Below, piece by piece: positions 1-48,474 of a DNA stretch of 64,000 bases; the stretch's first letter is position 1, and the number at the start of each line of letters is the position of its first letter. Position numbers and translations under genes: made by a program. Location: the NCBI GenBank assembly GCA_018806915.1, contig JAGKQI010000086.1:806001-870000 (forward strand), given 5' to 3'. The notes beneath the pieces were generated by a model, which did not search any database, was not told the origin of the DNA, and saw only the letters and a program-made list of their open reading frames with translations. The DNA comes from Phytophthora colocasiae. Taxonomy: Eukaryota > Oomycota > Peronosporomycetes > Peronosporales > Peronosporaceae.

Positions 1-2297
1 TCTAGTTTAACATCTTTTCCACCTTCCTCGGGGAACAATCCGGCGTGTCGGGTCGGATCGTACCACTTGCGAATCTGGTTGTAAATTCTTCCCATGGGGC
101 ATTCTCCAGCTTCATGGATCTCCCGCAACCACGGCATGTATATAAGCAGCGATCCGTTGGGTGGTCCCTCTTTCCGCATTTGTCACAGGTTAAACGTCTC
201 CAGCAGTCCAGATCCGTGTGCTTCCGCGATCCACAATGCGAACAGCGACCTCGATCGTGATCTGATCCCCTGTGATCCGTGATCCTGCCTCAATCTTGCG
301 AGTTCGTGTGCGATCGCGGCTGATCCACTGTTGGTGGGGAGCGCTCCCAGTACCGATCGGCTTTCTTTCTGACGCGGCCAGATATATCCTCCGGAGATCA
401 CCTTCAGAATCGGATCCGTCCGATCCGGATATTTCTTCCGTTTCCGAGCTCGGATCTTGGGTTTGGATCGCCCGCACCACCGCTCGGGTGGGTGCTGCCG
501 GGGCGCTGGCCGGTGCCTTTTGTCTGTATTTCGATCCGAACGCAGATTTACGCTGCTCTGCTTTTCGCCCGTTCCCGGGCCTGAAGTACTTCCTCCAGTT
601 CATCGACGTCGCTCAGCCGGAGTAGGGTCAGCCGATCAGCTAACTCCGGATCTCCCAATGTCTCGATGTAGTGGTCTACATGTTCCCGGCGGGCCTTGGG
701 GTTCCCATCCTTGATCTTTAGTCTAGCACGTAAAGCCGCCACGTTGAGCCGGTAGAGATAATCGAGAGGAGTTTCTTCCGATCGCTTGCGAGCGTGATAG
801 TATTGCCACGCGACCGACATACCCAACCCACAATATTGGGTCTGGAAACTGTCCAACAGATCCGCCCACTTGGTTTTCGTCGTTCGACTGAGCTGCCTGT
901 ACCAGTTCTTTGCCGGTCCCACCATCAGATCTGCAAACGTGAGGCATTTCTCTTCTTCCGTAGCCTGATCGCGCTAGAACGCTGACTTGACTTTACTGAT
1001 CCAGGCCCGAGCGCGATCTTCGTCCAGATCTTTACCCGCAAAATCTTTCAGATCCGAGATCGCTGAGATCCGGACCCGCTGGATCATCGACGATCCTCCT
1101 TGACCGATCGCCGCGGATGCGATCGTGGCTCGGCTCGACATCTGTCCACCGGAACTTGGTATGCCCAGATCGTCCGGATCGTATTCCCATGCATCCGGAT
1201 CCGAGGCCGTGACGGACTCCATCTCAACATCCAACTCCCCTTCGATCGGCGATCGGGGTGTCGCGAGATTCCGTTCTTTCAAGAAACGATACATCGCCAT
1301 TTGAAAGTAGTCGTCCAACTTGTTGCTCGATCCAGTGGAATTAGTCGTCGGCGCGGTCTGGTCCGTCCGGATCCGGCGATTTTCTTGCTGATCGGGCATC
1401 TTGACCTCCAGCTTCGCAGCCACCGATCGCGTATCCTGTTTCTTCATACGCGATTTCAGGAACTTGGCGCCGGAGGGCCCTAACGACATGCGTTGCAGCC
1501 TTCTCGGGCTATCTGAGTCTGGTTCCGAGGTCGCTGACGCGTAGCATGACGACCCAGTCTGATAGCCTGGGTCGGGCGTCAGTGGGCGCTCGCCGACCAA
1601 GATCTTGAGGGAATCGAATAGATCATGGGTCGCAGATTGAATCGCTTGTAGTTCCAAGTCAAATAGAGAGTTTGGGTCGAACTCTCCAGCCACCAAACCA
1701 GCTTCTTGGAGCAGATCAAGTAGGATCTTCACCGCGTTCAGGCGGTCAGAGCTAGTCCGGGGCTTCGACACTGGGCCGGTGAGGTTACCGATCTGGCGGA
1801 CTTGTATGATCGTAAGAACGGGATCGTTAAGCAAGGTCTCTCTTAGCATCTTCCTGTAGTAGGCCTGCTCGATCGCGTCCTTGGTGATCGTCGATCCTGG
1901 GCTGATCATATCTTCTGGCTCTGAGTCTGGAGCCTTCAATTTCGTCCGGGTGCTCTTGATCTTCTTTTTCTTGGTCGATCTTGAGCTTTGCTGATTCCTT
2001 ATCGCTCGTGTGCGGATCTCGATTCTCATCGAGATCCGCAATGGCCCTCGAAGGGGCCTTGGGAGGAATTCGAGGTTTTTCTTCGAGATCTGGATTGCGA
2101 TCCAGGTCTGCCTCGTGCCTGTCAGTAGAGATCCTCCCAGAACTCTGCTGATCTGTGGATCTTTCCGTTTTAAGCGATGCCTCCGTCGATCCAACCTTCG
2201 TAGGCACTTCTTCCCCTTGTTCTTCTTTAATCTTGACATCTTCTTGGGACTCACGGTGAAATCCGAAGTCACCAGAAGATCCGGGCACGCGCACCAT
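1..2297 (-). pseudogene. gag: Gypsy-A gag, broken
   Basis: This is the structural Gag of a Ty3/Gypsy element. The frame from the ATG at 2297 is open to ~1827, then shifts where a ~31-bp segment present in the 56-kb copy (after 56700) is missing. A second frame runs to 974-976, where a CAG codon of the 56-kb copy is TAG. The same frame continues through the retrotransposon gag core (925-548, with an AKNWYRQL motif). It then frameshifts into the zinc-knuckle region (~50-250). The N-terminal part is acidic and Lys-rich with low complexity. At least three lesions make it a pseudogene. Confidence 0.85.
2280..2297 (-). promoter_or_regulatory. Candidate primer-binding site of Gypsy-A, overlapping a gag ATG
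   Basis: Directly after the LTR end CACCACA the minus strand reads A then TGGTGCGCGTGCCCGG. This starts with the TGG expected opposite a tRNA CCA end. An ATG overlaps it, and that frame stays open into gag. The priming tRNA is not identified. The plus-strand copy at 56385-56402 is similar but carries small changes. Confidence 0.5.
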
Positions 2298-3641
2298 TGT
2301 GGTGGAGCGGATCTGGCCAAAATCTGGTTGAGGCCGATCGCGATCGCCACTTGCGCCCAGACACCGACTAACGGAGGGGGTCCCCCGATGATCCGTGATC
2401 TTGCTGCGTGTAGTGTTCACCTTGTGTACCCGTCGGTAGGCGGGTTACGCTCTTCCAGGTGACTTCTGAAGGTGTCTTGTAGGTCGGAAGAAAGTCTTGC
2501 GTGACGCAGGGGTTGAGGTAGCGTGGAAGTTCTTCACTCCACCTCGGGGTACTTGATCCCGGTCGTAGGCGAGTTCTCGAGCCTTGATCCGGGTGCCTGG
2601 TTCTTGATCCAGGTCTTCCAATAGTCCAGTATTAGGGATTCGGTCCCTTCCTTTACGTTGCTTGCCGCTTCCTTTAGCGGGGGTCTTGAGGGGGCGAGAT
2701 TCGACGGGATCGTCAGGCTAAACAACTAATTCCTTCCGATCCGATGTATGCACTTAAAGGATAGTTCACTAGATAGGGCAAAGCTGGCCAATATATTATC
2801 CAGACTTAACCGCTATACTAGGTCACGTATCCTTACCTTCCTGACGCTTGTAGGGCCAATGTAGTTCCCGGTTCCAGGCGTAGCGAAGACACTTGAGTGG
2901 TTCAGGGCAAATTCGAGTCTGTTTATGGTTATTCCTATGCCTACTAATCCCATCCTGATTTACCATCCTACGATCACATGACACTGGCTACATAGCTGAT
3001 CCCTAGCTTGGTTCCCCTAACCCTGATCGTGAGCCGATTCCGTACTTAACCGAAGCTTGATCTCGCACTTAACCGAAGCTTGATCTCGCACTTAACCGAA
3101 GCTCGATCTCGCACTTAACCGAAGCTTGATCTCGCACTTAATCGGGACTTGATCGCTGCCTGATCCCACTTGGTAATCCTTCGGAGAATCCGGATCAAGC
3201 CACCAGAAGAGTCTGCGTCGCGCCTGGGGCTGAGCTTGATCCGGAGCTGATCTCGTACTTATACGGGAGAGGATCACTGCGTGATCCTGCGTGATCCCGC
3301 TTCGTCGCCGCCCGGGGAAGTAGGATCGTGCTGTTAGAGGCTTCGGGGCGCCAGGGTAAGCCGATCGTGCTCACTTGGGACCCCGTCATCGCTGATCGCG
3401 CGAGAACATCCTTGATTTCCCCATTCTTCCTCCGGCAGGATTCGGATCACCCACGAACACCGCTCCACTTGCTCCTCCGCCGGTGTCTCCGTTGCCTGTT
3501 CCCCGGCTGGACCCATCGTACCTTCGTCTGATTCGACCCAGATCTGGGGATCACAGGTCCCCCCTGTCGCTCGTTCCGACTCTATTCGGGTTCGTGGCTG
3601 ATATCGCCTCTCCGGGAAAAATTCTCGTCCGCTTCACCACA
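2298..3641 (-). repeat. Gypsy-A 5' LTR (1344 bp)
   Basis: The LTR is bounded by the inverted ends TGTGGTG (at 3641 on the minus strand) and CACCACA (at 2298). Three other LTRs have the same ends: 27149-28445, 44017-45314 and 55059-56384. It is 46-47 bp longer than the first two, which matches two extra units of the 23-bp repeat at 3044-3135. No protein-coding region is recognised in it. Confidence 0.85.
3044..3135 (-). repeat. 23-bp tandem repeat (4 units) inside Gypsy-A LTR
   Basis: Four consecutive 23-bp units begin at 3044, 3067, 3090 and 3113. Each starts ACTTAACCGAAGC and ends GATCTCGC, with one T/C difference in the third unit. The equivalent place in the LTR at 27149-28445 (27656-27701) has only two units. 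The unit is therefore variable in copy number between LTRs of one family. Confidence 0.85.
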
Positions 3642-5248
3642 GGGGCATCGTGATACTCGAACATGATCCTCAACCGGAGGTCATGATCATTCGGAACGAC
3701 AATGCGATCCGCATTGTCGTCTACTGTACTGTACAACAGTAGGCCTTCGTGTACACGATAGCGGTGTACACGAGCTCGAAGATGAGGGGTTAGCTTCCGA
3801 CGTGCCACGTCGGAAGGTGCTGCGAGGAACTCCAGCAGCCCCTTCGCGTCTGCATCCCTTGCATACGCGTTCTTCACGTCGTCAATCAACGTTGACGACG
3901 GCACACTTGTCCTCACGACGCCAACTGCGTTGGCGTCGACCGTCTCCGCATAGTCAGGTCGACGCGAAAACGCGTCGGCCACTACATTGAGTCTTCCGGG
4001 TTTGTACTCCACCCGGAAGTTGTACTCCGCGAAGAAGGACAACCATATCGCCATACGTTGCGAGATGTGCGGCGACTTAATCGCCGTCCGCAATGATGCG
4101 TGGTCTGTGTAGACCACGAACGGTCTACTCCTAAGTAGATACACTCGGAACTTTGCAAGTGTATATTTCATGGCAAGGAGCTCCTTGTCATGTACGGGAT
4201 AATTACGCTCAGCTGGCTTCAGCTGACGCGATTGATAATAGACTACACGATCACGCCCTTCGTGATCGTGTTGCATCAATGCACATCCGATTGCAAAGTC
4301 GGATGCATCGCGCACTACGTGGAATGGACGATCTTGGTCCGCCACGGCCAAGATCGGCGCTTCAGTCAAGCCCTGCTTGACTGCACCGAAATGCCTCCTC
4401 GCACTCGGTCGTCCAACTCCACTCAGCTTCTTTCTTAGAAGCTGTGACAACGGGCGAATCTTTTGCCCGCATAGTTGTCCACGTACTTGCACAAAGTACG
4501 TGGCAAGCCAAGGAACTGCCTCCAGTTCCTTCACATTGGATGGCGTGGGCCATTCATTGATCACTCTGACCTTCTCTGGGTCAGGGCGCACGCCGTCTTT
4601 CCCCACGAGACACTCCAGCACGGGTATCTCGCTCGCCCCGAAGATACACTTCTTCAGGTTCGCATAGAGCTTATGTTTCCTCATAAGCTCTAGCAGCTTC
4701 CGGAGATGCACCTTGTGCATCTCAATGTCCGTCTTCCCGTTCACAGCCCGGCTGTGGACGAACACGTCGTCGAAGTAGCTCGGTGCGAAGTCGCGCACCG
4801 AGCGCAATAGATGTGTCACGCATCTATTGAACGTCGCAGGGGCGTTCTTAAGCCCCTGTGGCATGACGAGCCACTCCCAAAGCATACCGCTTGGAGTGCT
4901 TACCGCAGTGAGAGGGATGTCCCTCTCACGCATGAGGATCTGATAGAATCCATCACGCAGATCTAGAGCACTGAAGATAGTGCTCAAGGCCATCGAATCG
5001 ATGATAACATCTTTTCGCGGTATCGGCGTCTGCGCCGGTATCGTCGCATCGTTCAACTTGTTGTACGCGTGAACGATGCGCCACCCGCCCTGTGGTTTCT
5101 TAACACAGAACGTTGGGGCACTGTGCGGGGACTTCGATTCCCGCACTTGACCTGCAAGACGACGACTTTCAAAGAAGTCGTCGATCGCTTGCACTTGTTC
5201 ACGCGGCAGTGGCCACTTCCGTGTAACACAGTACTTCGTGCCCGGCAC
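3642..5248 (-). CDS. pol: Gypsy-B reverse transcriptase-RNase H
   Basis: This is the Pol core that copies element RNA into DNA. The frame is open from 5248 to the Gypsy-A insertion. RT motifs in order are a GGWRIVHAYNKLN block, LDLRDGFYQI, MPQGLKNAPATFNR, and the catalytic box SYFDDVFV (Tyr-Phe-Asp-Asp). RNase H follows with Asp in VRDASDFAIG, Glu in HDKELLAM, Asp in VYTDHASL (codon 4105-4103) and Asp in ADAFSRRP. All four expected acidic residues are therefore present, unlike Gypsy-A. The start at 5248 is not a true initiator: the segment belongs to a polyprotein, with one frameshift near 5310. There is no second RNase H. Confidence 0.9.
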
Positions 5249-5440
5249 GAGATCAATCTCGTGCTGTACGCCCTTGTCCTTCGGAAGCTCCGAAGGAACC
5301 TACATCCTTGTACTCCCGCAGAACTTCGTAGTAGGGACTCGACCTCAACGAGTCCCAACTCTGCTCTTCGAAGCGCTGCTTCTTAGTCTTCGCACTGAGG
5401 GAGTCATCACCCTCAGTGATCCCATCGACGACGAGCTGCT

Positions 5441-5975
5441 TCAGATCAGTGCTGCACATGCACCGGCCGGTGCATGTGCAGCACTGACAGGGCCATCGCT
5501 CTCTGTCGCGCATGTGTTGTTGAAGCGTACGAGTGTACGCTTCTCCCAGTTGATCACCGGGTCATGCCGTGCAAGCCACGGCATGCCTAATACCAAGTCG
5601 AACTTATCGTCTAGATCCAAGACGATAAGATCTTCTACAAACGTCCTTCGTTTGTAAGAGAAGCGCACACGGACTACGCGCTTCTCAGTCCTCACGGTGG
5701 CACCTGTTGCCAACCGCACCTCCAACACGCCGCGAGGCGTGTCGGCTTCTTCGAAGTCAAACCTTCGAAGACTTCCCTGTCGAACAAAGTTGTTCGACGC
5801 GCCCGAGTCCACTAGGGCACGAAGAGAGTTCACTCTCTTCGACATCACGTTCAGGATGACAAGGTTTGGCTTGTCATCTTGCAGCTTACAGCGAGAAACC
5901 TTCTCGCTGGGGGCAGCAGTCCTCATCGTCGCGTGTCCAAGCTCGACACGCGAGACTGCATCACCAGTAGGACGC
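5441..5975 (-). CDS. pro: Gypsy-B aspartic protease region
   Basis: This is a retropepsin-type protease that processes the polyprotein. The active site is LVDSGASNNFVR. Downstream is the flap/C-terminal block LVLGMPWLARHDPV, typical of Ty3/Gypsy proteases. The upstream junction with gag lies at a T-homopolymer near 5998, where the frame changes. The frame closes at 5441, just past the centre of the 42-bp palindrome at 5446-5487, so the protease-RT linker is frameshifted. Confidence 0.8.
5446..5487. repeat. 42-bp perfect palindrome in Gypsy-B pol
   Basis: The sequence from 5446 to 5487 is its own reverse complement with no spacer, centred on CCGG|CCGG at 5466/5467. Because of the symmetry both strands encode the same short peptide (SAAHAPAGACAAL). 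It is the longest of many inverted repeats in Gypsy-B. Confidence 0.95.
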
Positions 5976-5981
5976 CCGCGC

Positions 5982-6969
5982 CTACTGGTCCTTGGCGTTT
6001 TTTGAACGCCCGCCCGCTGTGCACTCGCGTGCATAGTGACCGATGTTACTACACTTGTAACATCGAACCTTGCTGTTCCTACGCTGCTGTTGACCAGCAG
6101 TCGTAGCACTCGAGAGGTCCATAGGTTCCGGACCTCCCGTCTTCACAACAGGACGCGCCGGCTTCGGCGCGTTCGCATGGAGTTTAGCTTGACGTCGGCT
6201 AAACTCCTCTTGCATCGCAAGGCTGATCGCTCTCTTCGAGGTATTCGGATACTATCGGAAGAGATATGTTTTGACAGGACCATCTCTTGGTCGCTTCATG
6301 AACGTGACGACCTTGGTCGCCTCGTCGATCGGGTTGGTCACTATGTTCGATACCAAGTATCGAGCACGCTGGGCAAAGGTGTGAACATCATCCTTGCCCT
6401 GCTGCAGATCGAGAAACTCCGCTCTCGATCTGAACTCGTTCTTCGGGGGCTCAAACGCAAGCTTGAGCTCCTCTTTGAACACCTCGTACGTGCCGAAGCA
6501 CGTAGGATCCGAGAGTCGGCGCCCATAGGCCCAACTCCTCGCACGTCCGCCAAGACATGACATGGCGAACGCGACCTTCGACATCGGATCGACGATACGT
6601 CGAGCCGCAACGGCTGTGTCGAGTTCGACAAGCCACCGAAGGAGGGTCTCGTCCTCCTTCCCCGTGTAGGTACTCACGTGGAGTTTCAATGACTCCACGC
6701 GTGGCTTCGGGGAAGCCACCGAGGCAGCAACATCTCGTTGTTCCTTAACAATGTACCCCAGAGCAACACCGTGTTGCTCTGTCGGCGATAGCGTACGAAG
6801 CATCGTCGCTACCGCTGCCTCTCCAATGACTTGTGAAAGTCTTTGGAGAGCTTCCCCACTCTGGATCTGACAGGTGGGCACAGTCCGTGCGCGTCACGGA
6901 CATGTGAGGGTCCCAGTGGATCCCTGATCCATTGGGGAGTTCTCTACCCGCGTTCCGTATGACTCCCAT
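5982..6969 (-). pseudogene. gag: Gypsy-B gag, frameshifted copy
   Basis: This is the structural Gag. The main frame (6881-6252) carries the retrotransposon-gag core (RARSWAYGRRL, FKEELKLAFEPP). The C-terminal frame (6215-5982) has a CCHC zinc knuckle, CYKCSNIGHYAREC. The N-terminus from the true start (ATG equivalent at 12047 in the second copy) is frameshifted near 6880. The segment between 6252 and 6215 is also shifted. The copies at 11066-12047 and 16132-17082 are near-identical. Confidence 0.85.
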
Positions 6970-7004
6970 ACGAACGAACAGCAGTCAGTCGTGGGACCGG
7001 ACTA

Positions 7005-7018
7005 CAAAGTGCTACCAG
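7005..7018 (-). promoter_or_regulatory. Gypsy-B primer-binding site (initiator Met tRNA-like)
   Basis: Two bases inside the LTR end the minus strand reads TGGTAGCAC. This matches the common TGGTAGC start of retrotransposon PBSs that pair with initiator methionine tRNA. It is repeated at the same position after the LTRs at 12097 and 17167. Confidence 0.6.
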
Positions 7019-7019
7019 G

Positions 7020-7479
7020 TGTAATGGGTCTACTTAGACCTATTAGGTAATACACGTGCGCTTACGTGTATGAGGAAGCGTGCAATTAGAATAGACTTAA
7101 TTTAAGTATACTTATTTAAATAAGTATAATTAAATCAAATATAACTAAATTAAACTGCAAAATACCGTAAAATGAGAACTGTTATTGAATTTGGCATAAG
7201 CCAATTATGGACCTCCTAAAACTGTTTGTTATCTATTTCTAAAGGGTCTGCCAACGTGTGGTTGGCAGAAACTCTGCTCAGTGATTGGTAGAAACCCGTT
7301 ACTTTCTACCAATAATATGCATTAAATGCACACGAACCACCCAATAATGTGGTTCGCCCATGTATCCTTTGGTGTGTACAGCACACCAAGGTCTGAGGCC
7401 CATTTCCAACCTCTAACAGTTATCCTAACTGTTAGAGTTACAAAATGGTACTACCACTTGTACGTGTAACCCCGTTACA
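7020..7479 (-). repeat. Gypsy-B 5' LTR (460 bp), inserted in Copia-1
   Basis: The minus-strand ends are TGTAACGGGG (7479) and CCATTACA (7020), an inverted TGTAA/TTACA terminus. The first half is a chain of perfect hairpins. Copia-1 RT resumes immediately at 7480. The five bases TTTGC at 7480-7484 also precede the opposite LTR end at 36673-36677, as expected for a 5-bp target-site duplication. Confidence 0.9.
7085..7175 (-). promoter_or_regulatory. AT-rich block of Gypsy-B LTR with 20-bp palindrome
   Basis: This stretch of the LTR is almost pure A+T, in sharp contrast with the GC-rich surroundings. It contains a perfect 20-bp palindrome at 7108-7127 with TATTTAAATA at its centre. It could hold the LTR promoter or the RNA 3'-end signal. 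It lies ~350 bp from the LTR start, so R/U5 is as likely as a promoter. The function is inferred only. Confidence 0.35.
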
Positions 7480-8160
7480 TTTGCAGTTCTGCATGCCAAA
7501 GCGCTCCAGGATGTCGTTGATGTAGCGAGCTTGGGACAGCGTGACGCTGCCATCTGCGTTGTCGACCACTTCGATGCCCAGAATGACGGAACACTTGCCG
7601 CTGTCGGTCATCTCGAATCGTGCCTTGAGCTGTTTCTTGACTTCAGCAATGATCGGCGAAGAGCTTCCGGTCACCAAAACATCGTCGACGTACACCAGCA
7701 TCAGAACGCAGTCACCATAAACAACCTTGATGTAGAGGCACGGATCGTAGCTCGAAACGCGAAATCCGATGGAGCGCACATACTCGTCGAAGGTCTCATT
7801 CCACACTCGAGAAGCTTGCTTGAGACCGTAGATCGCCTTGAGCAGTTCCACGCAGTCGTAGCCGTCATCAAGTTCCACGCCTTCTGGAACACTGCAGAAC
7901 ACCTTCTCCTTCATCCAAGCCGTACAGGAACGCCGTGACAACATCAAGTTGGTCGAAGGGCCAATTGAAGAACTTGGCCACAGCGATGATCATTCGCAGC
8001 GTGACGTACTTGACCACCGGCAGAAACGTCTCGGTGTAGTCGATCGCCATACTTCTGCACAAATCCTTTCGCGACGAGTCCAGCCTTGTACTTCTCGATG
8101 GACCAGTCGGCTTTACCCTTGATCTTGAACACCCAGATGGTTCCGACTGCGCGTTGGTTG
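7480..8160 (-). pseudogene. pol: Copia-1 reverse transcriptase, unit 1
   Basis: This is the RT domain. The N-terminal block (WVFKIK, LVAKGFVQKYG) lies in the integrase frame. The rest is in a second frame open from ~7910 to 7480, with IYGLKQASRVWN and the catalytic MLVYVDDVLVTG. It stops at the Gypsy-B LTR just after a Met-Gln-Asn-Cys-Lys stretch. Several frameshifts near 7915 and 8040-8060 break it. Confidence 0.85.
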
Positions 8161-9326
8161 TTCGGTAATTTGGCGCCACGAAACACTCCACGAAGTCGCA
8201 TCGACTTGAGTTCTGCTCGAATCGCCTTGCGCCAGTGGACTTGGTCTTCGCCGCTCACAGCATCTTGGAACGTCTTTGGCTCGGCGCTGTCACTCGTCTC
8301 CACTGCATTCGCACTCGCACGCCAGTACATCGGCTGAGTCGAGTCATCATCATCATTGTCTTCAGATTTGGCTTCTTGATGGTCGGAGTCCGGAGCGCTT
8401 GCTTCTTCTAGTCCAGCACTGCGACGCGGTCGACGAACATGTTCACGATCCTCGGCGTTAGAACGAGCCTTGCGTTTCCCCGCCTGCTTGAATTCACGCG
8501 TTCCATGGTCGTTCGAAATCTCGAGGTCTTCAAGGATATCCGCAGCATCTTCGACATCTTCATCATCATCCACAATATTGGCGTCGTCGAAGGTTGATTC
8601 GTCGAAAGTGACATCGCGAGAAATCACTACCTGGCCCGCCTCGATGTCATAAACGCGATACGCCTTCGAACGCTCTTCATAGCCCATGAAAATTCCTTCA
8701 CGAGCCTTGGGGTCCCACTTGAGTAGCTTCTCCTTCGGCGTCAGGACGTAGGCCTTGCACCCGAAAACGCCCATGTGCTTCACGTTGGGCTTCCTCTTGT
8801 ACACAATCTCAAACGGCGTTTTCCCTGGGACCTTGGGTGATGGCAGTCGATTCTTGATGTAAATTGCCGTCATCGCCGCTTCCGCCCAGAACGTCTTGTC
8901 CAAACGTGCGAAGTGAAGCATGCTGCGCCCGATAGTCACAATCGTCCGGTTGGCTCGTTCCGCAGTAGCATTCGTCTGATGCGCATATCGAACCGTCGGC
9001 TGGACTTCAATGCCATGATTGTCGTAAAAGGCCTTGAGCGAGTTAGTCGCGAACTCCTTGGCACCGTCATGACGCACGAACTTGACCCTGGCATCGAATT
9101 GGCGCTCCACTTTAGCGATGAACTTGCGCAGACTGTCTTCACTCTCCGACTTGGCGCGCAAACAGAATCCCGTCATGCAGCCGCTGGCTTCGTCAGTGAT
9201 CAGCAGTAGATACTTGCTGCCACCAAGCGACTCTTTCTCCATGGGGCCACAAAGGTCGAAGTGCAGGAACTCGAATGGCTTGTACTTGGGCTTGTCCGGG
9301 TTACTCGAAAAGGGTTTTTGGACCAT
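8060..9326 (-). CDS. pol: Copia-1 integrase, unit 1
   Basis: This is a DDE integrase that joins element cDNA to host DNA. The open frame of 460 codons (9326-7944) carries Asp24 in LHFDLCGPM, Asp87 in FVRHDGAKEF and Glu123 in NATAERANR, which fits D-62-D-35-E. After the catalytic core come a GKTPFE...VFGC block and an acidic, low-complexity linker leading into RT (NNQRAVG). It is part of a polyprotein, so the Met at 9326 is not a real start. The upstream HHCC part is frameshifted in the protease frame. Confidence 0.9.
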
Positions 9327-10071
9327 CTTCCCTTGCTGACACCCGCGTCATCCGCTTGAGTTCTTCGACGAGGTCGGCATTTTCGCGCCCGTCACCATGC
9401 CGCTCAAAACCATCTTCCGTAGCACGTCGTTCGGAGCATGACCCATCCGCGCATGAAGATCGACACTGTTGATCGAGACCGAAGTCGTCGAATTGGCAGA
9501 ACCTCGCGGGTACTCGTAGCCAGTAGAGCCCGTCGATCAGGTCCGCGGAAGCAACGATCTTCTTCGACGACTTGCGCGCAATGTGCATCTCGGAGCCGTC
9601 AAACACCACCTTGAAGTCTCCACCTCGGTTGATCTGAGGCACAGACAGCAGGTTCTTGTTCATACTCGGTAAGAGAGCATCTTCGATTCGGACGTCGCGC
9701 ACACTCCGGTTGGGCAGAATCACTTGTTGTACAACGGTACCAACTCCCAAAATCTTGGCCGTTTGACCGTTGGCAACTGTGAGTTTACGCTTCGTCGCGC
9801 AAGTTGATGTCGATGAACTTGGACTTGTCGTTGCAAATGTGGTGGGTTGCGCCACTGTCGATCGCCCATGAGCCTTGAAACTTCTTGCCCGACGACACTC
9901 CACACGCTGTCGACATGGAGACCGCAAACGCGATGTAGTCGTCATCCTCGTTGCACCACTCAACGTTGCTGGCACCGCGACCACCTCGGCCGCGTCGTGC
10001 TCCTCAATTTTCTGCTTTCTGCTTGGTCCAGCACTTGTCGATAACGTGCCCCAATTTTCTGCAGTAGTCAC
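9301..10071 (-). pseudogene. pro: Copia-1 protease and pre-integrase region, unit 1
   Basis: This is an aspartic protease, active site [13 protein letters not shown], present at ~9860. In this copy the surrounding frame is shifted relative to the open frame. The open part contains [20 protein letters not shown] and the conserved MNKNLLSVPQI block. The LHARMGHAP pre-integrase motif near 9440 is also out of frame. Confidence 0.8.
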
Positions 10072-10819
10072 ACCGGCGAGTTTGACGCTCGGCGTTGAAG
10101 GCCTTCGCTGCTTCCTCGATTTTTCACCGCCGCAGTCTTCTCGCCTTGTCGCTTGATATGCTCATTCGTGAGCACCTTCACCACATCTGCGTCCGCAGCT
10201 CTGCATTGCTCATCTCCATGTTGAGCACGACGTTCTCGTAGCTCTTAAGCAGACTGCGCAGCAAGCAGATCGCCACATCCTCGTCCTCCATCTTGGCGCC
10301 GATACTGCTAAGCTTCGCGCTGATGTTGAGGACCTCGTTGCAATGGTGAAGGATGTTTCCGCCTTCTGCCATCTCCATGTTGAAGAGCTGACGCTTGAGA
10401 TAAATGCGTCCAGCCTTCTGCGATCCACCGTAAAGGGTACGCAAGCGCGCCCACGCGACCCAGGCTTCCTCGTAGTCGTCGACCACATGATGGTAGTCCG
10501 CGTCCATGTGGAGGAGCATCAGACCGAAGGCGACATTGCTCGACTTGACATACTCGTCCTTGGCTCTGGAGTCCGTGAATGTAGGCGTCGTCTCGCGATT
10601 CACCACATTCCACACCGACTTGGTCAGGAACACGCCACGCATGTAACGGTTCCACGTGGCGTAGTTCTCGCCGTTGAACTTGTCGATGGAGATCTTGGTA
10701 TCTTGGACAGATGACATCGTGCTTGGGCTCATAACCTGAAGAAGGTCGTCACAGAGGTTGTCTTGCGAAGGGAGGACTGCCGAGGCTTGAGGCGAGAAGG
10801 CCGAGGCGAGGGAAGTCAC
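10025..10819 (-). CDS. gag: Copia-1 gag, unit 1
   Basis: This is Copia Gag (UBN2/retrotran_gag type). The frame is open 10819-10178. The first ATG is at 10732, and the codons before it have no ATG. The core motif [17 protein letters not shown] is followed by helices with [22 protein letters not shown] knuckle, [14 protein letters not shown], lies at ~10030-10074 in a shifted frame, because a base is missing near 10180 relative to the intact copy at 54008-54859. Confidence 0.85.
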
Positions 10820-10837
10820 TTGAGGGGTAGAATGGAA

Positions 10838-11065
10838 ATTCAGAAGTGATTGATTGATATGAGCTTACACTGTCTTCTCTACCTGGCCTGCATCCAATCA
10901 TTTGGTGCATCCAATCACCAACACTCTGTACTCGTCCAATCATCCTACTCGTCTAATTATCGGTGGCGTAAACATCTTACCGTAATCATTGCGGGATCGT
11001 ATTGGATCACCTGCAACACCCTACATCCAATCATTTGGTGCATCCAATCACCAACACCAGCCAGA
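10838..11065 (-). repeat. Copia-1 LTR/leader region, unit 1
   Basis: This is non-coding sequence directly upstream of gag. It recurs before every Copia gag (15904, 20970, 38010, 54880) and after Copia RNase H (34552, 51412), so it contains the LTR. It holds a ~35-bp direct repeat at 10890-10924 and 11023-11056 (GCATCCAATCATTTGG...). The exact LTR ends are unclear because no full-length element with both LTRs is present. Confidence 0.7.
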
Positions 11066-12047: not shown

Positions 12048-12096
12048 ACGAACGAACAGCAGTCGGTCGTGGGACGGACTACAAAGTGCTACCAGG

Positions 12097-12556
12097 TGTA
12101 ATGGGTCTACTTAGACCTATTAGGTGGCGTACACGTGCGCTTACGTGTATGAGGAAGCGTGCAATTAGAATAGACTTAATTTAAGTATACTTATTTAAAT
12201 AAGTATAATTAAATCAAATATAACTAAATTAAACTGCAAAATACCGTAAAATGAGAACTGTTATTGAATTTGGCATAAGCCAATTATGGACCTCCTAAAA
12301 CTGTTTGTTATCTATTTCTAAAGGGTCTGCCAACGTGTGGTTGGCAGAAACTCTGCTCAGTGATTGGTAGAAACCCGTTACTTTCTACCAATAATATGCA
12401 CAAATGCACACGAACCACCCAATAATGTGGTTCGCCCATGTATCCTTTGGTGTGTACAGCACACCAAGGTCTGAGGCCCATTTCCAACCTCTAACAGTTA
12501 TCCTAACTGTTAGAGTTACAAGTGGTACTACCACTTGTACGTGTAACCCCGTTACA
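12097..12556 (-). repeat. Gypsy-B LTR, unit 2 (460 bp)
   Basis: It has the same TGTAA/TTACA ends as 7020-7479. It is followed by the iMet-like PBS (12082-12095) on the gag side and abuts Copia-1 RT at 12557 with TTTGC. Confidence 0.9.
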
Positions 12557-14987: not shown

Positions 14988-15094
14988 GGAGACCGCAAAC
15001 GCTATGTAGTCGTCATCCTCGTTGCACCACTCAACGTTGCTGGCACCGCGACCACCTCGGCCGCGTCGTGCTCCTCAATTTTCTGCTTTCTGCT

Positions 15095-15885: not shown

Positions 15886-15903
15886 TTGAGGGGTAGAATG
15901 GAA

Positions 15904-16131: not shown

Positions 16132-17095
16132 GGTCCTTGGCGGTTTTTGAACGCCCGCCCGCTGTGCACTCGCGTGCATAGTGACCGATGTTACTACACT
16201 TGTAACATCGAACCTTGCTGTTCCTACGCTGCTGTTGACCAGCAGTCGTAGCACTCGAGAGGTCCATAGGTTCCGGACCTCCCGTCTTCACAACAGGACG
16301 CGCCGGCTTCGGCGCGTTCGCATGGAGTTTAGCTTGACGTCGGCTAAACTCCTCTTGCATCGCAAGGCTGATCGCCTCTTCGAGAGTATTCGGATACTAT
16401 CGGAAGAGATATGTTTTGACGGGACCATCTCTTAGTCCCTTCATGAACGTGACGACCTTGGTCGCCTCGTCGATCGGGTTGGTCACTATGTTCGATACCA
16501 AGTATCGAGCACGCTGGGCAAAGGTGTGAACATCATCCTTGCCCTGCTGCAGATCGAGAAACTCCGCTCTCGATCTGAACTCGTTCTTCGGGGGCTCAAA
16601 CGCAAGCTTGAGCTCCTCTTTGAACACCTCGTACGTGCCGAAGCACGTAGGATCCGAGAGTCGGCGCCCATAGGCCCAACTCCTCGCACGTCCGCCAAGA
16701 CATGACATGGCGAACGCGACCTTCGACATCGGATCGACGATACGTCGAGCCGCAACGGCTGTGTCGAGTTCGACAAGCCACCGAAGGAGGGTCTCGTCCT
16801 CCTTCCCCGTGTGGAAGTACTCACGTGGAGTTTCAATGACTCCACGCGTGGCTTCAGGGGAAGCCACCGAGGCAGCAACATCTCGTTGTTCCTTAACAAT
16901 GTACCCCCAGAGCAACACCGTGTTGCTCTGTCGGCGATAGCGTACGAAACATCGTCGCTACCGCTGCCTCTCCAATGACTTGTGAAAGTCTTTGGAGAGC
17001 TTCCCACTCTGGATCTGGATAGGTGGGCACAGTCCGTGCGCGTCACGGACATGTGAGGGGTCCCAGTGGATCCCTGATCCATTGGGAGTTCTCTA
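16132..17095 (-). pseudogene. gag: Gypsy-B gag, unit 3
   Basis: This is the third tandem copy. The main frame is 16918-16397, the CCHC knuckle frame 16360-16132, and the N-terminal part is frameshifted by small insertions at ~16815 and ~16905. It shares the in-frame TAG after the gag core seen in unit 2. Confidence 0.85.
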
Positions 17096-17166
17096 CCCCG
17101 CGTTCGTATGACTCCATACGAACGAACAGCAGTCGGTCGTGGGACGGACTACAAAGTGCTACCAGG

Positions 17167-17628
17167 TGTAATGGGTCTACTTAGACCTATTAGGTGGCGT
17201 ACACGTGCGCTTACGTGTATGAGGAAGCGTGCAATTAGAATAGACTTAATTTAAGTATACTTATTTAAATAAGTATAATTAAATCAAATATAACTAAATT
17301 AAACTGCAAAATACCGTAAAATGAGAACTGTTATTGAATTTGGCATAAGCCAATTATGGACCTCCTAAAACTGTTTGTTATCTATTTCTAAAGGGTCTGC
17401 CAACGTGTGGTTGGCAGAAACTCTGTTTCAGTGATTGGTAGAAACCCGTTACTTTCTACCAATAATATGCATTAAATGCACACGAACCACACAATAATGT
17501 GGTTCGCCCATGTATCCTTTGGTGTGTACAGCACACCAAGGTCTGAGGCCCATTTCCAACCTCTAACAGTTATCCTAACTGTTAGAGTTACAAGTGGTAC
17601 TACCACTTGTACGTGTAACCCCGTTACA
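17167..17628 (-). repeat. Gypsy-B LTR, unit 3
   Basis: This copy is 462 bp with the TGTAA/TTACA ends, a PBS at 17152-17165, and abuts Copia-1 RT at 17629 with TTTGC. Confidence 0.9.
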
Positions 17629-20952: not shown

Positions 20953-20969
20953 TTGAGGGGTAGAATGAA

Positions 20970-28445: not shown

Positions 28446-30170
28446 CCCCCACGGCAGGGCATCCGGGTCGTGAGAAGACATACACTCTTCTCACGCGTGA
28501 CTTCTACTGGCACCACCAGTACAAGTGGGTGCGCAAGTACGTACGTGCTTGCGAGGTTTGTCAACGCGTGAAGCCTGCGCAGTTCTCGCAGGCTCCTCTT
28601 CAATCACTACCGACTCCGTCGGAAGTGTTTGGCAGTCCATGTCCATGGACTTTGTCTTCGGTCTTCCGCCTGACAGCAAGCGGAGGACGGGCATCGTTGT
28701 TTTTGTGGACCGATTCAGCAAGATGGTTCATCTTGCTGCCGTCCCGGCTACTGTTACAGCCGCGCAGACTGCGCGACTGTTTGTTGACATGGTGTTCAAA
28801 CACCATGGCATGCCGCTCGAGTCGGACCGTGATCCACGCTTCACAGCGCGGTTCTGGCAAGAAGTGTTTACACTTCTTGGTTCACAGTTATCAATGTCGA
28901 CTGCGGATCATCCACAGACGGACGGACAGACCGAACGTGTCAACCGTGTATTGGGTGACACGTTGAAGAGCTACGCTCACTCGTTCCCGCATTGGAGCGA
29001 GTGCTTGCCGATGGCAGAGTTTGCCATCAACAACTCGGTGCATGCCTCGACAGGGCATACACCGTTCTACGTGAATGTCATGAGGCATCCACGATTGCCG
29101 AGCATGCTCGGCGGGGTAGCTTCCTCCTTAAGTGGGGGAGGATCTACGGTTGCGTCCGAACAACCGCAGAATGCAACTGATAGCAGCACACTATCAGCTG
29201 GCGGTGACGCGTGCGACGTCTCGTTCGGAGCGGGAACGAAAGCGCGCGATGTCTGTGCCGGGCACAGACATGAGATGATAGCGAGCAGGCAGGGCCTGCT
29301 GCTGACAAGGGCGACAAGCTGAAAGGATTCAGCTCGGGTGCGCTAGACTTTGTCCAGCGAAGACAAGCCGTCATACGGTTTGTCCAGGATGCTATCGCAG
29401 CTTCTGTCGATCGACAGAAGCTGAACGCTGATACTGTTGGTAGAGGCAACACAAATGAATTCAAAAAGGGTTCATTAGTTTTGTTAGCTACACAAAACCT
29501 ACCTAGACATGCAGTGTCTGACTTTGGAGCAAGCAAGCTTGCTCCAAGATTCATTAGGCCGTTCAAAGTACTTGAACGGCACGGCAACGCGTACCGACTG
29601 GACATACCGTCCAGCATGAGGCTCCACCCGACCTTCTACGTCGGGCTGTTGAAGCAGTACGTGCTGCACGGACTACCTTGGGTTGGTAGTCCGACTGAGG
29701 AGTGCGAGAGGCCTGGAAGGCCTTCTCGAGACCGTCGACACGGTCGGTCAACCGGTTCACTCTCGTCCCAAGACCGGACGAGAGGTTCGAGGCAGTCTGA
29801 GCTGCCTCGCAGACCTCAGCACGGAGGACACGAACCTCCTGCTTCAGGGCAGCTATCTCAGCGCTCTGTGTCTGCTCCAGCGCAGCAACTCGATCGTGCA
29901 GGGCACGATCGTCATGGTCATAGCGTTGACCATGAGGAGGAAGTGTTCCCACCCCCTCCGCCGCCGTTGCGCGACGCGCGTGGAGCGATCCGCTGGATTG
30001 TGGAGCGGATCGTGGCTCATAAGAGAACGAACTCTCAAGGGGTTCGTTTTCGTATTCGTTGGAGAGGATTTCCTCCCCATCGAGATACGTGGAAGCCGCG
30101 GAACGTCCTGATGGAGGACGTTCCGGAAATGGTGAGGGCGTACGAAGCCCACCATAACTTGCAGGGGTAA
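28446..30170 (+). pseudogene. pol: Gypsy-B integrase and chromodomain, copy 1
   Basis: This is an integrase with a C-terminal chromodomain. It starts inside the HHCC domain (AGHPGREKTY, CEVCQRVK). The core carries SMDFVFGLP, SDRDPRF and QTDGQTERVN. After GPFKVLERHG comes a Pro/Arg-rich linker, then the chromodomain (WIVERIVAHKR...FRIRWRGFP). Compared with copy 2 it has extra bases near 28624, 28745 and 29205 and a changed C-terminus, so it is frameshifted at least three times. Confidence 0.85.
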
Positions 30171-31224
30171 GCCCTGCACGAGGAGTGCTGCGGTCAGCCA
30201 CAGCACTCGGAGCTCCGCGTGGCTCGAGACGACCACGAAGCTCCTTGATGTGATCGGGTACACGTACAAGCGTGTACCCCAGGAGATCACTTTCTGAGAG
30301 ACGTGTTGCCAAGGGTTGGCAACACGGGCAGGGTGTGCCAAAGGGAACGGCACATGGGATCCCCGCTTCCATGACTGATCATGGAGGCGTTCACACTTAC
30401 CACGTGTAGTGTAAGTGTAGTAGCGATCGCGAGCCGCAGCAACGCGATCGCGATATGCCTTCGGGTCTTTGTTGAAGTTCTCAACAAAGGCGTTCCACGA
30501 CTGACAAAGTGCCTGCCACTCTGGCACTTTGCTCTTGCGCGAAGTCTTCTTCGCTGCATAGTATCGGAGCTCGTGGAAGAGCCCGATATAGTAGTCGCGT
30601 CTTTGAGTCTCGGACTCAAAGACAACCTTAGCGGCGACGTCGTCGTCGTTGGTACTGTTGCATGAGTACAACAGTATCGGGTTCGGTGGTGAACTAGCAC
30701 CGAACCGGTCATGGATCTCCGCCTCAGTAGGCATCCATGGCGTGCGCACTGGCGGATCAGTGCGCGGTGCAGTGAGCGCCCTCGACATTGGGGACGCTTC
30801 ATCATCACTGCGCGGACGCTTCGAGCTTGAAGCGTCCGAGGCCTCAACACGAGGTCGTCGAGATCCCACGGGTGGGTCTGACGTGTCTTCGGACGAAGAC
30901 ACGGGTGCGGGGGCCTTGACATCAACCTCCGCCTCCTCGACCATCCTCGTCGTAGTCGAGGATGTCTTCATAGTCCTCTTCAAAGAGTTCTTTGAGAGGG
31001 ACAGCAGGATTCTTAATCTCTGCTAGAGAATAAGACTTCTTATTCTTCTCATGCTTCTCCTTATGGAGAGCATGGTACTTGGTGACAGAGAGCTTCTCTG
31101 TCGGACCACTGGAAGCAGCGGTGCTAGTGGGCACTGCTGAAGTCGTTGTTCCTGCTGCAGAGGCAGCAGGTGAGGCTTGCGCGTCCGCAGAAGCGGACGG
31201 AGACGTGGGCGTTGGCGAGTCCAT
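29563..31224 (-). CDS. Gypsy-B antisense ORF, copy 1
   Basis: This is a long reading frame opposite to the element's own genes. A true ATG at 31224 opens 100 codons of Ser/Thr/Ala-rich then acidic sequence (LKELFEEDYEDILDYDEDG). A shift in a GGAGGCGGAGG run leads to the frame 30983-29853, with YYIGLFHELRYYAAKKT and ARDRYYTYTTRGK. A last shift near 30155 leads to the coiled-coil C-terminus. It overlaps the sense chromodomain by ~600 bp. The product is unknown; an accessory antisense ORF is inferred from position, length and conservation of the frame. Confidence 0.6.
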
Positions 31225-31325
31225 TGCGAAATGAACTCGGATTTCTCTCGGGAACTTGACGGTCTTGTCAAGTTCTGTTGATTGACGTATCGAGACCGAT
31301 ACGTCGAATCTTAACGGGGGGATGG

Positions 31326-31611
31326 TGTAACGGGGTTACACGTACAAGTGGTAGTACCACTTGTAACTCTAACAGTTAGGATAACTGTTAGAGGTTGGAA
31401 ATGGGCCTCAGACCTTGGTGTGCTGTACACACCAAAGGATACATGGGCGAACCACATTATTGGGTGGTTCGTGTGCATTTGTGCATATTATTGGTAGAAA
31501 GTAACGGGTTTTTACCAATCACTGAGCAGAGTTTCTGCCAACCACACGTTGGCAGACCCTTTAGAAATAGATAACAAACAGTTTTAGGAGGTCCATAATT
31601 GGCTTATGCCA
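31326..31611 (+). repeat. Gypsy-B LTR, 5' 286 bp only
   Basis: It starts TGTAACGGGG and stops at GGCTTATGCCA, where Copia-1 begins. Chain of hairpins: 10-bp arms at 31344-31353/31355-31364, 12-bp arms at 31367-31378/31382-31393, and others. The missing 175 bp are found inverted at 36678-36852, broken at the same nucleotide. Confidence 0.9.
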
Positions 31612-45314: not shown

Positions 45315-47117
45315 CCCCCACGGCAGGGCATCCGGGTCGTGAGAAGACATACACTCTTCTCACGCGTGACTTCTACTGGCACCACCAGTACAAGTGGGTG
45401 CGCAAGTACGTACGTGCTTGCGAGGTTTGTCAACGCGTGAAGCCTGCGCAGTTCTCGCAGGCTCCTCTTCAATCACTACCGACTCCGTCGGAGTGTTGGC
45501 AGTCCATGTCCATGGACTTTGTCTTCGGTCTTCCGCCTGACAGCAAGCGGAGGACGGGCATCGTTGTTTTTGTGGACCGATTCAGCAAGATGGTTCATCT
45601 TGCTGCCGTCAACTACTGTTACAGCCGCGCAGACTGCGCGACTGTTTGTTGACATGGTGTTCAAACACCATGGCATGCCGCTCGAGTCGGACCGTGATCC
45701 ACGCTTCACAGCGCGGTTCTGGCAAGAAGTGTTTACACTTCTTGGTTCACAGTTATCAATGTCGACTGCGGATCATCCGCAGACGGACGGACAGACCGAA
45801 CGTGTCAACCGTGTATTGGGTGACACGTTGAAGAGCTACGCTCACTCGTTCCCGCATTGGAGCGAGTGCTTGCCGATGGCAGAGTTTGCCATCAACAACT
45901 CGGTGCATGCCTCGACAGGGCATACACCGTTCTACGTGAATGTCATGAGGCATCCACGATTGCCGAGCATGCTCGGCGGGGTAGCTTCCTCCTTAAGTGG
46001 GGGAGGATCTACGGTTGCGTCCGAACAACCGCAGAATGCAACTGATAGCAGCACACTATCAGCTGCGGTGACGCGTGCGACGTCTCGTTCGAGCGGGAAC
46101 GAGCGCGCGATGTCTGTGCCGGGCACAGACATGAGAGATGATAGCGAGCAGGCAGGGCCTGCTGCTGACAAGGGCGACAAGCTGAAAGGATTCAGCTCGG
46201 GTGCGCTAGACTTTGTCCAGCGAAGACAAGCCGTCATACGGTTTGTCCAGGATGCTATCGCAGCTTCTGTCGATCGACAGAAGCTGAACGCTGATACTGT
46301 TGGTAGAGGCAACACAAATGAATTCAAAAAGGGTTCATTAGTTTTGTTAGCTACACAAAACCTACCTAGACATGCAGTGTCTGACTTTGGAGCAAGCTTG
46401 CTTGCTCCAAGATTCATTGGGCCGTTCAAAGTACTTGAACGGCACGGCAACGCGTACCGACTGGACATACCGTCCAGCATGAGGCTCCACCCGACCTTCT
46501 ACGTCGGGCGGTTGAAGCCGTACGTGCAGCACGGACTACCTAGGGTTGGTAGTCCGACTGAGGAGTGCGAGAGGCCTGGAAGGCCTTCTCGAGACCGTCG
46601 ACACGGTCGGTCAACCGGTTCACTCTCGTCCCAAGACCGGACGAGAGGTTCGAGGCAGTCTGAGCTGCCTCGCAGACCTCAGCACGGAGGACACGAACCT
46701 CCTGCTTCAGAGCAGCTATCTCAGCGCTCTGTGTCTGCTCCAGCGCAGCAACTCGATCGTGCAGGGCACGATCGTCATGGTCATAGCGTTGACCATGAGG
46801 AGGAAGTGTTCCCACCCCCTCCGCCGCCGTTGCGCGACGCGCGTGGAGCGATCCGCTGGATTGTGGAGCGGATCGTGGCTCATAAGAGAACGAACTCTCA
46901 AGGGGTTCGTTTTCGTATTCGTTGGAGAGGATTTCCTCCCCATCGAGATACGTGGAAGCCGCGGAACGTCCTGATGGAGGACGTTCCGGAAATGGTGAGG
47001 GCGTACGAAGCCCACCGCCAACTTGCAGGGGTAAGCCCTGCACGAGGAGTGCTGCGGTCAGCCACAGCACTCGGAGCTCCGCGTGGCTCGAGACGACCAC
47101 GAAGCTCCTTGATGTGA
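45315..47117 (+). CDS. pol: Gypsy-B integrase with chromodomain, copy 2
   Basis: The first frame (to 45652) has the HHCC part (GHPGREKTY, CEVCQRVK) and SMDFVFGLP with the first catalytic Asp. After a one-base shift near 45610 the second frame (45519-47117, 532 codons) has Asp58 in SDRDPRF and Glu94 in QTDGQTERVN, a D-35-E spacing. It then has GPFKVLERHGNAYRLD and HPTFYVGRLK, an Arg/Pro-rich linker, and a chromodomain near residues 430-490 (WIVERIVAHKR, FRIRWRGFPPHRDTW). Chromodomains are known to guide Ty3 integration to heterochromatin. Confidence 0.9.
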
Positions 47118-48087
47118 TCGGGTACACGTACAAGCGTGTACCCCAGGAGATCACTTTCTGAGAGACGTGTTGCCAAGGGTTGGCAACACGGGCAGGGTGT
47201 GCCAAAGGGAACGGCACATGGGATCCCCGCTTCCATGACTGATCATGGAGGCGTTCACACTTACCACGTGTAGTGTAAGTGTAGTAGCGATCGCGAGCCG
47301 CAGCAACGCGATCGCGATATGCCTTCGGGTCTTTGTTGAAGTTCTCAACAAAGGCGTTCCACGACTGACAAAGTGCCTGCCACTCTGGCACTTTGCTCTT
47401 GCGCGAAGTCTTCTTCGCTGCATAGTATCGGAGCTCGTGGAAGAGCCCGATATAGTAGTCGCGTCTTTGAGTCTCGGACTCAAAGACAACCTTAGCGGCG
47501 ACGTCGTCGTCGTTGGTACTGTTGCATGAGTACAACAGTATCGGGTTCGGTGGTGAACTAGCACCGAACCGGTCATGGATCTCCGCCTCAGTAGGCATCC
47601 ATGGCGTGCGCACTGGCGGATCAGTGCGCGGTGCAGTGAGCGCCCTCGACATTGGGGACGCTTCATCATCACTGCGCGGACGCTTCGAGCTTGAAGCGTC
47701 CGAGGCCTCAACACGAGGTCGTCGAGATCCCACGGGTGGGTCTGACGTGTCTTCGGACGAAGACACGGGTGCGGGGGCCTTGACATCAACCTCCGCCTCC
47801 TCGACCATCCTCGTCGTAGTCGAGGATGTCTTCATAGTCCTCTTCAAAGAGTTCTTTGAGAGGGACAGCAGGATTCTTAATCTCTGCTAGAGAATAAGAC
47901 TTCTTATTCTTCTCATGCTTCTCCTTATGGAGAGCATGGTACTTGGTGACAGAGAGCTTCTCTGTCGGACCACTGGAAGCAGCGGTGCTAGTGGGCACTG
48001 CTGAAGTCGTTGTTCCTGCTGCAGAGGCAGCAGGTGAGGCTTTGCGCGTCCGCAGAAGCGGACGGAGACGTATGCTGGCGAGTCCAT
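46540..48087 (-). CDS. Gypsy-B antisense ORF, copy 2
   Basis: The main frame is open for 435 codons (47847-46540). It contains a Ser/Pro/Asp-rich N-part, a Tyr- and basic-rich middle (YYIGLFHELRYYAAKKT, ARDRYYTYTTRGK) and a coiled-coil C-terminus (LHDRVAALEQTQ, AALKQEVRVLRAEV). The N-terminal part (47998-47786 and upstream) is in another frame, and an indel near 48040 disturbs the start seen at 31224. The last 578 bp overlap the sense chromodomain ORF, so both strands are open there. No known family is recognised. Confidence 0.65.
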
Positions 48088-48189
48088 TGCGAAATGAACT
48101 CGGATTTCTCTCGGGAACTTGACGGTCTTGTCAAGTTCTGTTGATTGACGTATCAGAGACCGATACGTCGAGATCTTAACGGGGGATGG

Positions 48190-48474
48190 TGTAACAGGGT
48201 TACACGTACAAGTGGTAGTACCACTTGTAACTCTAACAGTTAGGATAACTGTTAGAGGTTGAAATGAGCCTCAGACCTTGGTGTGCTGTACACACCAAAG
48301 GATACATGAGGCGAACCACATTATTGGGTGGTTCGTGTGCATTTATGCATATTATTGGTAGAAAGTAACGGGTTTTACCAATCACTGAGCAGAGTTTCTG
48401 CCAACCACACGTTGGCAGACCCTTTAGAAATAGATAACAAACAGTTTTAGGAGGTCCATAATTGGCTTATGCCA
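48190..48474 (+). repeat. Gypsy-B LTR, 5' 285 bp only (copy 2)
   Basis: It starts TGTAACAGGG after the purine run GGGGGATGG and breaks at GGCTTATGCCA into Copia-1, identical in structure to 31326-31611. Confidence 0.9.

Follow-up and report, generated by a model that had tools for sequence, protein, structure and literature searches.

The closest described systems come from RNA viruses, from genes and from another Ty3/Gypsy element. Vertebrate viruses with genome-scale ordered RNA structure (GORS) fold far better than composition-matched shuffles along the whole genome, forming hundreds of consecutive stem-loops; pairing positions are poorly conserved between relatives and paired sites are less diverse (PMC7642675, in the passages cited here). 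Perfect reverse-complement arms mark the hairpins that template switching creates or repairs in genes, as scattered single events according to the portion of that work drawn on here (PMC8794818). The genomic RNA of Ty3 also has folded regions, and the cited part of its structural map describes 12-14 well-folded regions and defined cis elements, never uses the word "synonymous" and makes no mention of an element-wide, codon-level excess of hairpins (PMC11381356). Here we describe Gypsy-B, a long terminal repeat (LTR) retrotransposon of the oomycete Phytophthora colocasiae, present in several pieces in a 64,000-nucleotide stretch of contig JAGKQI010000086.1 (positions 806,001 to 870,000; hereafter the window). 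Like these systems it is rich in pairing, but it is saturated with short perfect hairpins throughout, and very probably selection maintains them. All counts come from this one genome.

An initial annotation of the window quoted nine pairs of arms from Gypsy-B, held that 3642-7479 is saturated with short hairpins and that Copia-1 and Gypsy-A are not, and proposed comparison with dinucleotide- and codon-preserving shuffles and with independent copies. All nine pairs proved to be exact reverse complements, and the saturation was confirmed against both kinds of shuffle; the span named is hairpin-saturated, but is only the 5′ half of the element. Counting inverted repeats with arms of at least 7 bases and loops of at most 15, and comparing each stretch with 20 dinucleotide shuffles and each coding part with 100 codon-preserving shuffles, we find about 18 hairpins per kb in Gypsy-B against 0.7-0.8 in dinucleotide shuffles: 70 at 3642-7479 (shuffle mean 3.05, maximum 9) and 57 at 28446-31611 (mean 2.2, maximum 5). 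Codon-preserving shuffles tell the same story for reverse transcriptase (RT) and RNase H, counted over 3554-5299 (35 hairpins versus 2.1, maximum 6), protease (PR; 16 versus 1.5, maximum 5), gag (7 versus 0.5, maximum 4), integrase (IN; 12 versus 1.3, maximum 4), the SH3-chromodomain part (14 versus 1.7, maximum 6) and an antisense open reading frame (ORF; 26 versus 2.2, maximum 7). Density is 11-23 per kb across seven parts of Gypsy-B, sense-coding, antisense-coding, non-coding and LTRs included. Elsewhere in the window the picture is ordinary: six counted stretches longer than 1 kb have 0.56-2.2 inverted repeats per kb, Copia-1 and Gypsy-A show no excess over shuffles, as the annotation had said, and the 3641 bases preceding the 5′ half (1-3641) have 8 (shuffle mean 3.65, maximum 7), much like their last 642 bases (3000-3641; 2 versus a mean of 0.8, maximum 2); the remaining stretches lie at or below shuffle level.

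A window-wide scan (arms of at least 8 bases, loops of at most 15) reveals five islands, at approximately 3.5-7.5, 11-12.5, 16-18, 28.5-31.5 and 45.5-48.5 kb, all coinciding with copies or pieces of Gypsy-B; outside them there are 0-2 hairpins per 500 bases. Copies outside the window carry the pattern too: at the same arm length, 39 of 40 fetched loci – at least three of the 40 being repeat fetches of one copy – have 12-15 repeats per kb. The other locus (L002) has 3.6 hairpins per kb, though it matches 4400-5000 at 99%, and is probably a truncated copy beside other sequence. Among 132 repeats in the two halves (arms of at least 7, loops of at most 25) the modal arm is 9 bases (23 of 73 and 17 of 59); loops are mostly of 2-9 bases and one arm only exceeds 13. 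The arms differ, which rules out a single repeated hairpin. Chance, base composition or assembly artefact has a negligible probability as the cause: in the Gypsy-B stretches and frames tested the observed counts exceed those of every shuffle, the pattern stands at 39 of 40 independent or partly independent loci, and neighbouring elements of like base composition lack it. Chance and composition are thus rejected by the repeat-count shuffles, as they are by the folding shuffles given below.

Gypsy-B is a chromodomain Ty3/Gypsy LTR element (a chromovirus). Its Pfam matches comprise gag, retropepsin, RT, RNase H, an H2C2 finger, the integrase core, a Tf2-1-like SH3 domain and a chromodomain; RT, RNase H and integrase stand in Gypsy order, and the LTRs, of 286-288 bases, have TG...CA ends. 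It shares gag, PR, RT, RNase H, IN, SH3, chromodomain and LTRs with known chromoviral Ty3/Gypsy elements of Phytophthora. In the window, which is a nest of repeated and rearranged pieces, the element is split: its 5′ half is read on the minus strand at 3642-7479, and its 3′ half occurs twice in plus orientation, at 28446-31611 and at 45315-48474. The features are as follows.

3642..7479, minus strand: Gypsy-B 5′ half (LTR, leader, gag, PR, RT, RNase H), from Pfam and repeat counts; about 1.1 kb deleted at 5447/5455
7192..7479, minus strand: LTR with TG...CA ends and 5 inverted repeats (arms of at least 7), a 98.3% inverted match to 31326-31611
7020..7191, minus strand: putative leader between LTR and gag, 11.6 inverted repeats per kb
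6255..6893, minus strand: gag (Pfam Retrotrans_gag)
5444..6142, minus strand: aspartic protease frame (Pfam RVP_2)
3642..5299, minus strand: reverse transcriptase and RNase H (Pfam RVT_1, RT_RNaseH)
5446..5487, no strand assigned: 42-base perfect palindrome at the edge of the 1.1-kb deletion
28446..31611, plus strand: Gypsy-B 3′ half (IN, SH3, chromodomain, antisense ORF region, LTR), from Pfam and repeat counts
28376-28963, plus strand: H2C2 finger (Pfam), in a frame overlapping the integrase core
28501..29319, plus strand: integrase core (Pfam rve)
29274..30167, plus strand: SH3_Tf2-1 and chromodomain (Pfam)
29856..31022, minus strand: antisense ORF of 389 amino acids, overlapping the chromodomain part and the 3′ region; 24 hairpins versus 1.9 expected
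31326..31611, plus strand: 3′ LTR, 5 inverted repeats
45315..48474, plus strand: second Gypsy-B 3′ half, 98.8% identical, 60 hairpins (Pfam and repeat counts)
46543-47886, minus strand: antisense ORF of the second 3′ half, 448 amino acids
11066..12556, minus strand: partial Gypsy-B copy (gag, leader, LTR), 21 hairpins versus 1.2 expected
16132..17628, minus strand: partial Gypsy-B copy (gag, leader, LTR), hairpin-rich

The nest itself includes three tandem copies of a 5.07-kb unit (5987-21198; 98.8-98.9% identity) and an 18-kb direct duplication (20132-55053; 98.0% identity), recent segmental duplications of nested retroelements. Elsewhere in the genome copies of Gypsy-B have single frames of up to 1753 amino acids, and in an RT-frame search the 75 best of 4980 candidates are at least 89% identical in protein, many of them in long open frames. 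A protein search found 2894 proteins at E<=0.001 among 8000 candidates scored; the nearest among the 120 matches listed, from Phytophthora ramorum, P. sojae, P. cinnamomi, P. cactorum and others, are 81-83% identical at the protein level.

Selection on the stems is recorded in the variation among copies. We used 35 copies in the 4.3-kb frame of reference L055, dropping L042, L046 and L060 as duplicates and leaving out L050 for its clusters of odd changes, and we counted a stem as such when a minimum share of copies, set at 5, 20 or 50%, supported it, so as not to rely on any single one. Under the 20% definition singletons fall at 124 of 1450 stem sites and 343 of 2804 non-stem sites, a ratio of 0.70; the ratio drops to 0.45 for variants in 2-3 copies and to 0.24 for those in at least four (10 of 1450 versus 81 of 2804; p 5e-7). 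At third codon positions the corresponding ratios are 0.62, 0.33 and 0.17 (p 2.6e-6 for the last), and under the other two definitions variants in at least four copies give 0.28 and 0.19. A depletion that deepens with allele frequency points to purifying selection. Some 59 shared variants are missing from stems. Had random copying of one arm onto the other removed them, about half should have turned up as double changes that keep a pair. Among the 35 copies there is no shared Watson-Crick double change of this kind and one singleton. Purifying selection, and not ongoing template-switch correction, therefore best explains the persistence of stems, and the latter is rejected as their keeper; the annotation's suggestion that template switching perfects quasi-palindromes fails to this extent, and retains, as a possible source of new stems, one fold-back junction, described below, in its favour. 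The excluded copy L050 (G000:C52, approximately 55-57 kb) has clusters in which C>A and G>T substitutions change conserved residues of RT, unlike the other copies.

The hairpins have a counterpart in predicted folding. Across the window 350-base fragments were folded on both strands and compared with dinucleotide shuffles: the 37 Gypsy-B fragments exceed their shuffles by a mean of 35.9% and 38.8% on the two strands, with minima of 17.6% and 15.1% (37 of 37 at 15% or more on each strand), against means of 0.5% and 0.2% for the 145 other fragments. For 4400-5300 the predicted RNA fold has z -13.0 in the sense strand and -14.2 in the other, against +3.1 for the Copia frame; relative to codon shuffles, the energy of family B, as we call this lineage among its relatives, is -1132 versus -837 in sense (z -26.8) and -1105 versus -756 in antisense (z -30.8). 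Relative to shuffles antisense folds at least as well as sense in B and in the related families C and D, and nearly so in family E. Stability alone is not the driver in B, given the small enrichment of GC at third positions of its stems (0.608 versus 0.580); that in C is larger (0.769 versus 0.650). Two observations stand apart. Fragments at 1401-2100 and 58451-59150, outside Gypsy-B, fold 14-21% above shuffles on both strands and may belong to another element. The hairpin-free loci L009 and L012 and the Copia frame at 13200-14100 fold worse than shuffles (z +1.5, +3.0 and +3.1), as if structure were avoided there.

The 448-amino-acid antisense ORF (46543-47886) matches no Pfam family, and has 538 protein relatives at E<=0.001 among 8000 candidates; those named among the 120 matches listed are Phytophthora hypothetical proteins, 39-81% identical. 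It has the look of a genuine antisense gene belonging to the lineage, and with so many relatives antisense transcription becomes plausible. A by-product of the hairpins it is not, since hairpin-free Gypsy-A, too, carries on the opposite strand a long frame past its chromodomain part (722 amino acids, 41833-43998, minus strand, no Pfam family), unrelated in sequence to that of Gypsy-B.

Three further families of the lineage, C, D and E, were compared, of which C and D show an enrichment of their own. Family C is represented by three loci, D and E by a single locus each. Against codon shuffles, family C (L073-L075; 51-52% protein identity to B) has 32 hairpins versus 7.5, and family D (L076; approximately 60% identity) 28 versus 3.8. 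Among more distant Gypsy families (L009-L038), 30 of 30 loci lack hairpins with arms of at least 8; two loci compared are 28% identical to B in protein, and in nine examined hairpins are at or slightly below shuffle level. Two scans of viral contigs for relatives of Gypsy-B found none. Between families most stem positions turn over: stems of B found in C number 0 of 60 or 1 of 77, depending on which of two alignments is used, B and D share 6 of 49, C and D share 3 of 17, and C and D are enriched mostly at other positions. Some shared stems differ by compensating synonymous changes, most clearly a C-D stem in which the same six residues, PLTAVS, are written in different codons with complete pairing in each. 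The protein allows about 1% of placements for nine-base arms, and with so few allowed the handful of shared stems could also be independent. A trace through 19 protein homologs in other Phytophthora finds pairing-compatible residues kept more often in realised stems at two differences (43 of 117 versus 102 of 420, p 0.009), with no excess at one difference (79 of 141 versus 281 of 542) or at three or more (20 of 181 versus 77 of 898), a weak result in which the rows are not independent. On the best-supported account the lineage is selected for foldability throughout its length, and individual stems come and go, as they do in GORS viruses (PMC7642675, in the passages cited).

The stems are not a matter of silent codon choice alone. 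Only 10% of compatible placements set wobble position against wobble position, yet 15 of 42 realised stems are in this register (p 1e-5), and its stems lie at poorly conserved sites, with 20 conserved codons in 19 stems versus 71 in 21 and 52 in 23 for the other registers. From this we infer that the hairpins have also shaped residues. The annotation's remark that codons seem chosen to pair is thus true and too narrow, for non-coding parts and registers that need amino-acid changes are used as well.

What makes new stems is a separate issue, on which one junction is informative. At 5446-5487 an older hairpin, present in other copies, has been extended: nine bases were copied from one of its own arms, and beyond them the sequence continues approximately 1.1 kb downstream. 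The window's copy alone has this junction, which none of the fetched copies shows; of nine copies checked, three span both sides. It is proof of self-templated synthesis at a Gypsy-B hairpin. Such copying may help create stems, and could in principle be the sole cause of the pattern: a growing strand, in reverse transcription or repair, would fold back at a quasi-palindrome, copy its own arm for about nine bases and return, and stems would accumulate wherever the protein tolerates them. This would suit stems that are Watson-Crick perfect, poor in G.U and strand-symmetric, a modal arm length equal to the nine-base extension, and the nearly even use of reading-frame registers despite the low compatibility of wobble-on-wobble. 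The 3′ arms also depart from conserved family residues more than the 5′ arms when distant relatives are used (12 of 69 versus 7 of 74), but not significantly (p 0.22); 12 of 69 compares with 26 of 309 outside stems (p 0.04), and against close relatives the arms hardly differ (3′ 8 of 115 versus 5′ 6 of 116). Mutation alone, however, does not deplete common variants in stems, nor is there any shared pair-keeping double change where some 59 shared variants are missing; the one junction, with which 1.1 kb was lost, may reflect repair; and no clean new stem was found among 37 copies, an apparent new hairpin at 4510-4531 in the window's copy proving to be two one-base indels misread by alignment. 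As sole cause self-templated copying is therefore improbable; as the maker of stems that selection then keeps it is a serious possibility, if somewhat short of an even chance.

That structure in Gypsy-B is under selection we consider very likely. Of the annotation's proposal of selection for a compactly folded RNA, selection on a folded nucleic acid survives, carried by stem-site depletion and compensating changes, and strand symmetry and the lack of a preference for G.U in B do not point to a compact sense RNA in particular. Selection for dense short Watson-Crick hairpins, with escape from silencing as the proposed benefit, has as a whole a probability of roughly 55%. The selected molecule is, on the sequence evidence, rather more probably the folded transcript than single-stranded complementary DNA (cDNA). 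In the mechanism we propose, local and rapid folding would keep both the sense genomic RNA and any antisense transcript paired with themselves, so that duplexes between the two, or of either with silencing RNAs, would rarely form; Dicer-type enzymes would not process stems as short as 7-13 bp. We favour such an escape, from antisense partners and from small RNAs alike, on the grounds of strand symmetry and of the antisense ORF with its hundreds of relatives, and Phytophthora makes 25/26-nt small RNAs that cover LTR retrotransposons (PMC3804510, in the part cited). The silencing step is nonetheless doubtful, and a fuller scheme, in which fold-back copying keeps making nine-base hairpins, selection keeps those that hide both transcripts from small-RNA silencing and the trait spreads element-wide, is unlikely to hold in all its parts.

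Several findings weigh against selection for Watson-Crick hairpins in a transcript. Two distant Gypsy families thrive without hairpins. With arms of at least 7, family E (L077, 1.2 kb only; approximately 60% protein identity to B) has 2 hairpins versus 1.5 expected; lowering the minimum arm to 6 gives 12 versus 5.8, and the family folds better than shuffles (z -7.2). Fixed near-stems of B with one odd pair divide into 8 G.U, 9 A.C and 12 other, and a purely sense-RNA fold should tolerate G.U, the scarcity of which in fixed stems thus weighs against such a fold. Among singletons, per source base, the stem ratio is 0.92 for changes leaving G.U in sense RNA, 0.56 for those leaving A.C and 0.67 for others; among shared variants it is 0.42, 0.37 and 0.22. 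G.U is thus only weakly better tolerated than A.C (p 0.06 for singletons, 0.80 for shared variants). Near-stems of family D favour G.U over A.C (6 to 0 internal, 8 to 4 outer, 4 to 1 inner), small numbers from many comparisons on which we do not rely. Together strand symmetry and scarce G.U describe a pattern of Watson-Crick self-complementarity that does not single out sense RNA.

For this very reason selection in single-stranded cDNA deserves consideration, with hairpins shielding against damage, deamination or nucleases, or aiding strand transfer. In DNA pairing G.T is a weak mismatch, and a signal symmetric between strands and sparing in G.U is compatible with pairing as DNA. Singleton G>A changes are moreover under-represented in stems (ratio 0.57) and C>T changes are not (0.93), as if non-stem cytosines of the minus strand were exposed. 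This contrast, however, is a small sample, and depletion deepens with allele frequency for all classes, unlike what exposure alone would produce; we consider the cDNA reading quite unlikely. Another possible role of the fold is to make the genomic RNA compact enough to be packaged in virus-like particles, or to guard it against nucleases and deadenylation; RNA viruses offer a precedent, and the like has been suggested for local motifs in other retrotransposons. Hairpins do span the whole transcribed element, and the genomic RNA of Ty3 is known to be structured (PMC11381356, in the part cited). Compaction leaves strand symmetry unexplained, and leaves unexplained too why the two distant Gypsy families that were folded do no better than shuffles, or worse; it is an unlikely explanation. 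Over these readings we continue to prefer selection for dense hairpins in both transcripts.

In RNA viruses silent sites are known to be selected for overall foldability, and what this serves there is debated. Gypsy-B brings the same question to a genomic parasite with hundreds of dated copies and with hairpin-free relatives in one genome – a natural experiment in which families with and without the trait share a host and a copying machinery, and in which the polymorphism record separates selection from mutation. The weeding-out of mutations that spoil hairpins suggests that a foldable genome matters to the element. Were escape from silencing true, it would be a sequence-wide, position-free form of transposon resistance to small RNAs; were stems made by fold-back copying, the origin of ordered RNA structure would be tied to a mechanism of mutation. 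We found no report of element-wide hairpin saturation of a retrotransposon in the literature searched, with subscription journals and preprints mostly outside that search.

Set beside the described systems, Gypsy-B differs from template-switch hairpins in being a saturated element lineage; it has one fold-back junction, and the frequent pair-keeping double changes among copies that mark a template-switch hotspot were not found. The resemblance to GORS viruses is closer, extending to folding excess, genome-wide spread, poorly conserved positions and reduced diversity at paired sites, and in degree Gypsy-B goes further: its folding excess of 36-39% (350-nt fragments, dinucleotide shuffles) compares with 7-15% for HCV and SARS-CoV-2 and with 23.4% as the highest value in the cited passage (PMC7642675). 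Unlike those vertebrate viruses it is an LTR retrotransposon, strand-symmetric and nearly without G.U. While GORS in RNA viruses, template-switch hairpins in genes and maps of Ty3 RNA are known, the retrotransposon version appears to be new, and we take Gypsy-B to be for retrotransposons what GORS is for RNA viruses.

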